DNA of 64,000 nucleotides from Candidatus Melainabacteria bacterium. GTDB taxonomy: Bacteria; Cyanobacteriota; Vampirovibrionia; Obscuribacterales; Obscuribacteraceae. Location of the stretch: positions 1 to 64,000 of the forward strand of contig JACRFZ010000096.1 in assembly GCA_016212515.1 (NCBI GenBank), in the 5' to 3' direction. Numbering within the stretch: the stretch's first letter is position 1; the number at the start of each line of letters is the position of its first letter. Below the pieces are notes generated by a model. It worked only from the letters and a program-made list of their open reading frames with translations. It made no database searches and was not told the DNA's origin. This document shows, in pieces, positions 27,913 through 59,608 of this stretch. The position numbers and the translations under genes were made by a program.

Positions 27913-30900
27913 ATGGAAACCCCGGGGCCTGAAGAAACTGGGAGCAAGCGGGACAGGGTTGCTCTGGTTTTGCTCATTCTTGCTCTTTTGGGTGGGCTTT
28001 TGTACGCCCGGTTGCAAAGCAATGTGTTTCCAACGGCTTCCCTTTCGCTGCCCCTTAGCCGTAGTGAAATTGTGCAGCGAGCTCGCAGTTTTGCCGGTCA
28101 GCAAGGTTACGAAGGACGCCTCTGGCCCCTTGATAAACCGGATGGGGCCAGGAAAAAAGAGATTGAGTCCATAACTTTCACCAGTTTCGACGAGGCTAAA
28201 ACCTTTCTCGAATACGAACTCGGTCTTTCTCAAGCCGGAGCAATCATGCGTGATAAGGTGCCGGTCTGGGCCTGGTCTGTGCGGTTCTGCCGAGAATTTA
28301 CCATTGAGCAATGCCGGGTGTGGCTTTCGCCGGACGGGGCTCTGGTGGGTTATTTGCGCACCCTGGAGGAAGAGCGGCGTCTGCCCAGTCTGAGTCATCA
28401 AGAGGCGCTCTACCTGGCTTCCGATTTCCTCAAGCTGGAAGGGCGAGTACAGGAAGGCACGCTTAAGCTGGTGCGAGACGAGACCAATGCCAGGGTGCAT
28501 CGAACCGATCATTCTTTTACTTTCGAGGATAAGCGGGAGGACTTTCATGGCGGCAAGCTGAGGCATTTCGTGGAAGTCTCAGGCAATATGGTGACCGGCT
28601 ACAACCGCTACTTGTTCGTGCCCGACAGTTGGAGCCGCAAGTACAACAACATGCGTTCATATAATGAACTATTGCAGCGCATAGCCAATATTTTCTACAG
28701 CACTCTCCAGATAATCTCTGCCCTGGTTGTGCCCTGGGCACTTTCCCGCAAGCAAATGCGCTGGCGCTTCGCCGTATTCGGCGGCTTGACCATGGCGCTG
28801 ACGGGCTTTCTTGACTGAGTCAATGAGTTCGTATCTATTCAAGCCGCTTACGACACCACTTCCTCTTATAACGATTACTTGCTCTCCTATTTTGGCCGGT
28901 CGGGGGCCTCTGCTCTCGGTTCCATGCTTTTTGGCGGGCTGCTTTTCGGCGGTGCCGATGTGGTTTACAGGCACTTTTATCCCCAGCGGGTGGCCCTGGA
29001 GAATTTCCTCAAACCGGCCGGTTTTTTCACCAGGGAAGGTTCAAAGGCGCTCTACATAGGCTACCTGGTGGCCCTGGTGCATCTGGGCTGGATTGTTCTC
29101 TATTATCTGCTGGGTGAGAAATTCAATTTCTGGTGCCCGAGCGGCATAGATAGTGTGGAAGTGTTGAGCGCTACGGTGCCGTTTTATTCTGCCGTTTCTC
29201 TGGGGTTGCATGCCGCTTCCCAGGAAGAGACGGTGGCGAGAATTGTGGGCTTGTCCCTGGCCTGGAAAGCCACCGGTCGCTTCTGGCTCGCTAATCTCTT
29301 TCAGGCTGTCATTTGGGCTTTCATGCACAGTTCCTATCCCCAGCAACCTTGCTTTGCCCGCGGAGTTGAGCTGACTGTGGTCGGTCTGTTTTACGGCTTT
29401 GTTTTGCGGCGCTACGGACTGCTGCCTTGCTTCATCGGGCACTACCTCTTAGATGCCTTCCTTGATGTTAAGCCGCTCCTCTCAGTTGGCCCGGGTCAGC
29501 TCTGGCTCTGGCTGTCTTCCTTCATTCCCCTTTTGCCGTTTCTCTTGCTCTTCTTTCTTTCACTCTTCGTCACCAGGTTGCGGGCAGCCGCGCCGCTAGG
29601 GGATGCGGAAACACTGGTAAATGCAGCAGCCGGGGACGCTGCCCTCACCAATGATGCCGTAAGCAAGTCTTTCGGGGCTAATGCAGTGGTGTCCATGCCC
29701 GTTGCCGACAGTGTTCGTGATGTCTACGTGTACAAGGGTTTCTCCAGTCGCTTTCGTTTGATTGCCGGTATTTCCTCCCTGGTTCTTTTGACCATTACTT
29801 TCTTCATTCATTTGCCCACTTGTGGTGATAACGCCCGTTGCCAGATTGGACGGGAGCAGGCTGTAGCAAAGGCGCGGCTCATTTTGCAGAAAGCCGGTGT
29901 GAATGTGAAAAATCACATTGCCGTGCCGGTTCTCTCAGCCAATGTAGCCATGGAAGAGATGCAGTATCTCTTTGAGCAGGTGAAAAGACCCAGAACCCTC
30001 GAACTGAGTCGTTTTACTCAGCCCGGTCTGGTCTGGTCCGTTAGTTTCTTTCGCTTCATGGATCCCACTGAGTACAGGGTCGAGATGAGAGCTGATGGTT
30101 CCGAGTATTCCCTGGATTTGAAAGAAGATGACGATGCCCCCGGCGCCCGGCTTTCCGAGGAGGAAGCTAAGGCTCTGGCTCTTTCTTATATCAGGCGCGT
30201 GCATCCCGAATACAAAGACTTCAAGCTTTCCAGGCTTTCTCGGGAAGATGAGAAGAATCGGCGTGATTACAGCCTGGACTTTGTTGTGCCGTCTTTGAAG
30301 GTAGGGGAAGCCGAGTATAAGTTCTATTTGCAAGTAGTGGGTGATTTGCCCTGCAATTTTGCCCAGGCCTGGACAATACCCGATAGTTGGCGCTACGAGA
30401 GGATCAAAGAAACCAAGCAAGATAAGATATTCGCTACCGTGCGCCTTTACACTAAGGTGATCATTGTCTTGATCTTGCTGTACTGGGTGTTCTGCTTGCT
30501 AAGGGCCGGTGTGATTCGCTGGCGCCTGCCCCTGGTGGTGGCGGCTGTTCTGGCTCTAGTGCCTGTTCTTGAACAGATTAATCACTGGCCTTCATTCATG
30601 GCCCAGTACGAAACTCATTTGACCGAAGCGACATACGTATTCAATCGTTTCTTGCAGCTTGTGCAGCATAGCGCCAGTGTCTTCTGGCAACTATTTCTGG
30701 CGCTGGCCCTATCTCTTGGGGCATTCAAGCTTCTTTCGCCCCGCTCTACTTTTTCTGCCATTTTGACCACTGCGTTTCGGCCAAGGGGATTGGAGGAACG
30801 GCTCTCGCAAAAGGAAATGTGGTTGGACGGTATAGTCGTTGCTCTTTGCGGGGAGGCGCTCAGCCAGCTAAAGGAGACCCTCACCTACTTCCTATATTAT

Positions 30901-31413
30901 CTCTATTCGCCTGAGATACGCGGCGCGCAGATTGATGTCTTATGCAGTCTCAGTGATTATTTCTCGGCGGTCTTTTCCGATGTGCTCGACTTGCCGCAGT
31001 CTTTCTTGCTGGCCATTGCCATTTATTTGATAGGCGCCGGCATGTATATGAAGTTCTGCCGAAACTTCTGGTTCTATATGGGTTTTTGCCTTCTCTACGA
31101 TTTAATCATGTGCAGTGGTGAGAGGCATTGGCAGGACTATTCAATTGCTCTTCTTTCCGGTCTGATCAATAGTGTAATTGTCTGGTTCTTTATTGCAAAA
31201 CTGGCAAAACTGAATCCTGTCGCCTATTTGCTTAAAATTGTGCTGGATGACTGCTTGCCTTTCATTTATGCCATTTATGCCTATGGGCTGCCTGCCTTTG
31301 CTCCGGATATGGTGGCATTCTTGATTTACTTGCTTGCCCCCCTGGCAGTGCTTCTTTATCTAAGCTTGCGCAACCGCAGCCTCACGCGCGAAGCTCCGCA
31401 GCAGGTGCCGTAG
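27913..31413 (+). pseudogene. Large CPBP-type membrane protease gene interrupted by in-frame TGA
   Basis: Two open frames in the same phase are separated by a single TGA at 28816-28818 (codon 302 from ATG 27913). Without it, they read through as ~1,167 codons. The first part has a membrane anchor and an extracytoplasmic domain ending PDSW, then spans. The second part holds a CPBP intramembrane protease core: E438-E439-x3-R443 (EETVAR), H472 in VIWAFMH and H510 in HYLLDAF. A second copy of the anchor/domain follows, again ending in PDSW, then eight or more spans. The repeated architecture aligns across the stop, so one protein was or is made. Whether it is a mutation, a sequencing error or recoding is open. 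Confidence 0.75.
28816..28818 (+). other. In-frame TGA within the CPBP gene
   Basis: The flanking peptides read LTGFLD-stop-VNEFVSIQ. In the second, paralogous half the matching peptide is VLEQINHW, so coding continues across this point. Only a 5-bp stem (28829-28833 with 28849-28853) follows; no GGUCU-type SECIS loop is seen. Confidence 0.9.
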
Positions 31414-57538: not shown

Positions 57539-59608
57539 ATGACAAAGTACTTCACTATCGCCACCGCCGGTCATGTGGACCATGGTAAGACCAGCCTGCT
57601 GAAAGCGCTCACCGGCGTCAATCCCGACCGCTTGAAGGAAGAGCGAGAAAGGGAGATGACCACGGATCTCGGCTTTGCGCCCCTTTTTATTAAAGCGGCG
57701 GCAGATTCTCAGCAGCCTGCCGAAGATATTGTGGTGGGCTTCATTGATGTTCCCGGGCATGGTAAGTTTCTCAAAAATATGTTGGCCGGTGTAGGCGGTC
57801 TGCATCTGGCACTGCTAGTGGTGGCGGCTGATGAAGGCATCATGCCCCAGACCTTGCAGCACATTAAAATTCTCAGCCTCCTTGGTGTGCGGCAAGTGCT
57901 ACTGGCCATCAGCAAAATAGATCTGGCTCCGGAACAAGTGCACACGGTCAGACAGTCTGTCGAAGCCCTGCTGACCATCTACAATATGCAGGCCCTGGCC
58001 GTGCAGCCTGTCTCGGCCTTGAGCCTGACCGGCATCGAAGCCCTCAGCGATACTCTTGCCGGTTTGCTACTGCACTTGCACCGCAACAGCCCGGCAAAAG
58101 CGGAGCTGGCTGCATATTTGCCGGTGGATAGGGTCTTCAACAAAAGCGGTTACGGCAAAGTAGTCACCGGTACTCTGGTGGAGGGTTCCATCAAGGTCGG
58201 AGACAATCTTATTCTCAGCCCCGGCGCCGTTCCGGCTCGTGTGCGCGGGCTCGAGACCTTCGGGCGCAAGTTGGAAGCAGCCCATGCCGGTCAACGCCTG
58301 GCTGTCAATCTGGCTTTTAAAGATGAGCCCAAGCTCAGTCGCGGTAGCGTCCTCAGCCCTTTGCCCTGTGCGCCGGCTTTCACCTTGCTTGTCACCATTG
58401 AAGATCTGGGCGGTCTTGAGTATTTTGGCGAAGAGGGTGGTGGTGCGACCGGTGCCTACCTTGATCCGGCGCGTGGCTCCTCGACCGTTCCCAGGCTCAA
58501 ACCACAGCCCATCAAGCTCTATCATGGCACCGCCGAGTATCCTGGCTACCTGCGCTGGCTGGAGCCCGCTGCCTGTGCCGCCGATTCTTCCCGAGATGAA
58601 GAAGATCTCCCGGCTCAGAAAGGCAACGCTCTCTATTTCGCCCAGATTGCCCTGGATGAGCCGGGCTCAGTGCGGGCAGGCGATCGCTTTGTTTTGCGCT
58701 ATGGCGACCATGGTATTGCCGGTGGTTCTATACTCGGCGCCGACCGTCCGCACTGGTTCAAGCGAGCCGACATACAACCATTTCTTTCCCTGCTCTCGGC
58801 AGGGCAGTATGCCGGAGCCGTTCGCTTCGTCTTACAGAAGCACCCCCAGTTGGCCCTGAAAGCAGAGCAAATGTCCTGGTTCCTGCCCCAGAGCCAAGCT
58901 TCGGCTGCCCTGGCGGCTGCGCTGGAAGGTGGCGAAAATCCATCGCCAGCGGAAGATAGGGGCTTGAATGTGGCAGCTAAAAAGCTCGGGGAATACTTCT
59001 ATCACCCCCTTCCCATGGCCCGGCTGGAGAAGAAAGTCTCTGCTTATGTGCTCTCCAACCTCGCTCAGGACAGCCAGGCTTCCTCTTCCCTTTCCCTTGA
59101 ATCACTGCGGCAGAAACTCTGCCCCTTCCTGGACCGCAGTTTCCTGCCTCTTCTCACCACCGAAGTACTGGCCGGCAATCTTGTGCAGCGCCAGGGCGAC
59201 AAGCTTGTGCCGGCAGCACGGGCTTCCCGCGGGGCTGGAGCGGACAAGGGACGGCAAGTGCTCTCCATACTGGAAGCACAACCGGTGCTGGAATTGAGCG
59301 AGCTGGCTAAACAATGCGGGTTATGCGAGCGAGACTTAAAAGAAATCATGGAAGAGCTTTCCACTGCCGGAGCAGCGGAGATCGTTTCCTATGAATTTGC
59401 AGCCAGCCGTAAGACCATAGAAGCCGGTCACCGCCACCTGGGTAAGCTCTGGCAGGCACGTCGCGATATTTCCCCTTCGGAGTTTCGGGAAGCCATGCAG
59501 GTGAGCCGCAAGTACACCATGGCCCTGCTTGCCTATTACGACGACCACCAGATTACTCGCCGGGTCGGTAATGGCCGCATGCTGCTAAAGGCGCCGCCTA
59601 AACAATAA
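57539..59608 (+). CDS. selB: Selenocysteine-specific elongation factor
   Basis: The 689-aa GTPase delivers Sec-tRNA to UGA codons marked by a SECIS hairpin. The G1 loop is GHVDHGKTSLL (11-21), switch I EREMTTDLGFAPL, and G3 DVPGHGKFL. G4 reads SKID instead of NKxD. EF-Tu-like beta barrels follow, with DRVFNKSGYGKVVTGTL. A ~50-residue insertion (YFGEEGGGATGAYL onward) precedes the C-terminal winged helices, which end ISPSEFREAMQVSRKYTMALLAYYDD-x-TRRVGNGRML, the SelB SECIS-binding domain. No selA, selC, selD or selenoprotein gene was identified in the window. Confidence 0.92.
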   Translation: MTKYFTIATAGHVDHGKTSLLKALTGVNPDRLKEEREREMTTDLGFAPLFIKAAADSQQPAEDIVVGFIDVPGHGKFLKNMLAGVGGLHLALLVVAADEGIMPQTLQHIKILSLLGVRQVLLAISKIDLAPEQVHTVRQSVEALLTIYNMQALAVQPVSALSLTGIEALSDTLAGLLLHLHRNSPAKAELAAYLPVDRVFNKSGYGKVVTGTLVEGSIKVGDNLILSPGAVPARVRGLETFGRKLEAAHAGQRLAVNLAFKDEPKLSRGSVLSPLPCAPAFTLLVTIEDLGGLEYFGEEGGGATGAYLDPARGSSTVPRLKPQPIKLYHGTAEYPGYLRWLEPAACAADSSRDEEDLPAQKGNALYFAQIALDEPGSVRAGDRFVLRYGDHGIAGGSILGADRPHWFKRADIQPFLSLLSAGQYAGAVRFVLQKHPQLALKAEQMSWFLPQSQASAALAAALEGGENPSPAEDRGLNVAAKKLGEYFYHPLPMARLEKKVSAYVLSNLAQDSQASSSLSLESLRQKLCPFLDRSFLPLLTTEVLAGNLVQRQGDKLVPAARASRGAGADKGRQVLSILEAQPVLELSELAKQCGLCERDLKEIMEELSTAGAAEIVSYEFAASRKTIEAGHRHLGKLWQARRDISPSEFREAMQVSRKYTMALLAYYDDHQITRRVGNGRMLLKAPPKQ

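Follow-up and report, generated by a model that had tools for sequence, protein, structure and literature searches.

The 64,000-nucleotide stretch of a Candidatus Melainabacteria genome analysed here (the window) contains a long reading frame that is interrupted by one TGA and shares the window with selB, the gene of the selenocysteine-specific elongation factor, which raises the question of whether this UGA breaks a single gene, separates two genes or is read as an amino acid. A sequence-only reading had proposed one TGA splitting one frame for a duplicated CPBP-type membrane protease, and offered three options: the gene became a pseudogene recently, the base is an error of sequencing or assembly, or the codon is recoded. 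Read across 27913–31413 on the plus strand, the interrupted frame has 1,167 codons, and the TGA at 28816–28818 (codon 302) is indeed the sole stop between the ATG at 27913 and the terminal TAG at 31411–31413, with no second break or frameshift. The 5′ part (27913–28818, plus strand, ending in the TGA) encodes an N-terminal transmembrane segment, a YcdB-like (DUF4901) domain and the first transmembrane segments of a first repeat; the 3′ part (28819–31413, plus strand, ending in the TAG) encodes the remainder of that repeat, including CPBP/Rce1-like protease motifs, followed by a second repeat.

The relatives carry this gene in one piece. We searched 40 genomes, 24 from the same family (that of the window included) and 16 from outside it, and found matches in 21 of the former and in none of the latter. 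Full-length homologues are single frames of 1,126–1,219 codons; some copies are shorter, several of these lying at contig ends. An internal stop occurs in none of the matches from the 20 other family genomes that have them. In both same-genus genomes, positions 27913–28815 and 28819–31410 of the window match adjoining stretches of a single open frame of 1,165 codons, as expected from the earlier claim that the two open reading frames are one gene, at 63–64% identity before the stop and 62% after it, and the gene neighbourhood is syntenic with that of one of them, G002. No second genome of the same species was found among those searched. The protein belongs to a family-restricted group of large membrane proteins (L002–L030 and window 27913–31413) with several paralogues per genome and up to seven matches. 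Both same-genus genomes, G001 and G002, possess a second, more distant paralogue (27–28% identity, 1,140 codons), which was not found in the 90.6%-complete assembly of the window's own genome, G000.

The architecture of the protein likewise runs across the TGA. A profile–profile comparison recovers an internal duplication over nearly the whole length (probability 100%, E = 1.6e-43, 513 columns) that aligns straight across the stop, and each repeat unit has its YcdB-like domain (PF16244) between a transmembrane segment and a polytopic membrane domain. The duplication proposed from the sequence therefore stands, but the proposed duplication of the protease does not: the motifs EExxxR, FMHS and HxxxD occur in the first repeat only, downstream of the stop, and the second copy, a YcdB-like domain with a motif-less membrane domain within 28819–31413 (plus strand), has lost all of them, so that these are not two working proteases. 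In the window copy the motifs read EETVAR (29224–29241, plus strand), FMHS and HYLLD, at columns that are nearly invariant in the homologue alignment. The CPBP profile PF02517 gives no match to the window copy at E ≤ 1; in relatives it scores between 3.5e-9 and 5e-12 over the same region, exceeding the cut-off in L004, L005, L006 and L009. PF16244 matches the window copy weakly (E = 0.01) but reaches significance in L002, an intact orthologue (1.6e-11; 44.9 bits), where it exceeds its cut-off, as it does in L004 (33.1 bits), with two copies per protein. The protein thus shares its three motifs, present in relatives and window copy alike, with the CPBP/Rce1-like family, and its two YcdB-like copies with proteins of the DUF4901 YcdB/YcdC repeated domain. 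Unlike the former, it embeds the protease-like domain in a duplicated protein of 1,100–1,200 residues with YcdB-like domains and a motif-less second copy, and unlike the latter, it has a polytopic membrane domain after each YcdB-like copy. We found no relevant literature.

As the frame downstream of the TGA runs on unbroken for 864 codons and retains every CPBP motif, the locus could in principle now make two functional proteins, translation restarting after the stop to yield a separate CPBP-domain protein. Two in-frame start codons, TTG at 28879 and ATG at 28924, are available for such a restart, and the product would keep the protease motifs. By eye, however, neither codon is preceded by a recognisable Shine–Dalgarno sequence, no promoter-like site was found nearby, and the ATG at 28823 lies in another frame. 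In addition, two separate genes at this locus were seen in no relative among the family genomes with matches. We consider a functional restart highly improbable.

What the TGA replaces is best judged from the alignment column in which it falls. Each of the 27 homologues extending to this column has a sense codon there, and the codon varies: Ser in 13, Thr in three, Arg, Ala and Gln in two each, and Asn, Trp, Tyr, Cys and Gly once each. Both closest orthologues, those of the same genus, have Arg, and elsewhere the residue is mostly Ser. The column is unconserved; it closes a transmembrane segment outside the protease motifs, and a nearly invariant Asn follows two residues later. The comparison of orthologues at codon 302 proposed in the sequence-only reading thus favours a nonsense mutation or an error, since Cys is not conserved and the two closest relatives have Arg.

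Selenocysteine insertion at UGA 28816, giving a full-length selenoprotein, deserves attention here since the genome has the complete machinery. The selB noticed in the window is genuine (57539–59608, plus strand; TIGR00475, 279.7 bits against a cut-off of 242.25), and the host genome also contains selA (SelA match, 528 bits), selD (SelD match, 347 bits) and a tRNA-Sec with anticodon UCA (71.3 bits; L031, G000:C77:96958-97052). The loci given for selA and selD in the host genome are L039 (G000:C26:16506-17867) and L088 (G000:C117:12181-13125). With all four components present, the host can decode UGA as selenocysteine, which counts against a plain nonsense codon. Bacterial selenocysteine sites are expected to show Cys or selenocysteine in homologues and a SECIS hairpin directly after the UGA. 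At codon 302, only one of the 27 homologues, a distant paralogue, has Cys, against the Arg and Ser of the others, and the site is the end of a transmembrane segment away from the protease motifs. The RNA 3′ of the UGA contains no SECIS-like fold, in line with the earlier impression that a hairpin was missing, and its folding energies equal those of shuffled sequences (z between -0.28 and 0.12). Because the column is unconserved and the downstream fold is no better than shuffles, the TGA is not a selenocysteine site, and we regard insertion there as having next to no probability; the selenocysteine system, complete as it is, is irrelevant to codon 302. Despite this machinery, we identified no true selenoprotein in the host genome: none of its formate dehydrogenase matches has a UGA in frame, and UGA codons conserved between it and G002 in all frames amounted to antisense and alternate-frame noise, with no selenoprotein positive control.

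A further possibility is a general decoding change, with UGA reassigned or efficiently read through across the host. For a census of stops, we compared by alignment about 461 kb of the host genome with reading frames taken from 400 kb of G002; the best segments, chosen so as not to overlap, cover 46,073 aligned codons, and the hits with stops all come from one contig of 224 kb (C78) of the about 461 kb. Of 14 stops in total, 13 fall within 26 columns of an alignment start, in the extension ahead of a start codon, and the only mid-gene stop is the TGA at 28816–28818. No gene of the census shows a split alignment of the frameshift kind. With a lone mid-gene stop and no such splits, the assembly is clean in the census sample and UGA is a normal stop. 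The census excludes general reassignment: codon 302 itself is all that speaks for such a change, against which stands this single case in 46,073 codons, and we give the idea practically no credence.

The locus is very probably a single gene that is not recoded but interrupted by a nonsense codon, which either arose by recent mutation or reflects an error of sequencing, assembly or population consensus; of the options first raised, mutation and error gain from the Arg in the closest relatives, and recoding loses with no SECIS-like fold, no conserved Cys or selenocysteine and no other mid-gene UGA. The age of the change bears on this interpretation. For the part before the stop, Tajima tests of this lineage against G002, with L004, L005 and L006 as outgroups, gave 18 versus 24, 20 versus 27 and 20 versus 16 changes, with no excess in this lineage, and branch lengths are similar (0.288 against about 0.34). 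Differences by codon position and GC3 are alike before and after the stop, and in this comparison the window copy is 65% identical to the same-genus orthologue before the stop and 63% after it. Because the part before the stop has not evolved faster, the change is probably recent or an assembly or consensus error. These comparisons suggest that normal constraint on the gene either lasted to the very recent past or continues, the latter being expected of an erroneous stop; in a single consensus sequence, a mutation and an error would look alike.

The nonsense-interrupted gene would encode one integral membrane protein of about 1,166 residues with duplicated YcdB-like and CPBP/Rce1-like domains, in which the premature UGA at codon 302 may have arisen by recent mutation in the sequenced lineage or may be an erroneous assembled base. 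If the UGA is real, ordinary translation would end after 301 residues, leaving a fragment that lacks the protease motifs, and the gene would therefore be a young pseudogene that has presumably lost its function. Natural leakiness of UGA could still yield a trace of full-length protein. A leaky UGA stop that is real, retained and specific to this lineage, giving a short YcdB-domain membrane protein and a little full-length protease, seems very unlikely. A gene in decay would in time acquire another break or a frameshift, and the lack of either here counts against nonsense interruption. With young pseudogenes, or with single-base assembly errors, the locus shares a lone stop in a conserved, syntenic gene that is open apart from it, a variable column and no decay yet, and we noted no difference from them.

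Orthologues, RNA fold and stop census together settle the recoding question for the TGA at 28816–28818, which makes it a clean example of why a UGA cannot be taken as recoded just because a genuine selenocysteine system lies beside it. The uncharacterised family of duplicated YcdB-like plus CPBP-like membrane proteins, present in 21 of the 24 family genomes and in none of the 16 others searched, is mildly interesting in its own right.
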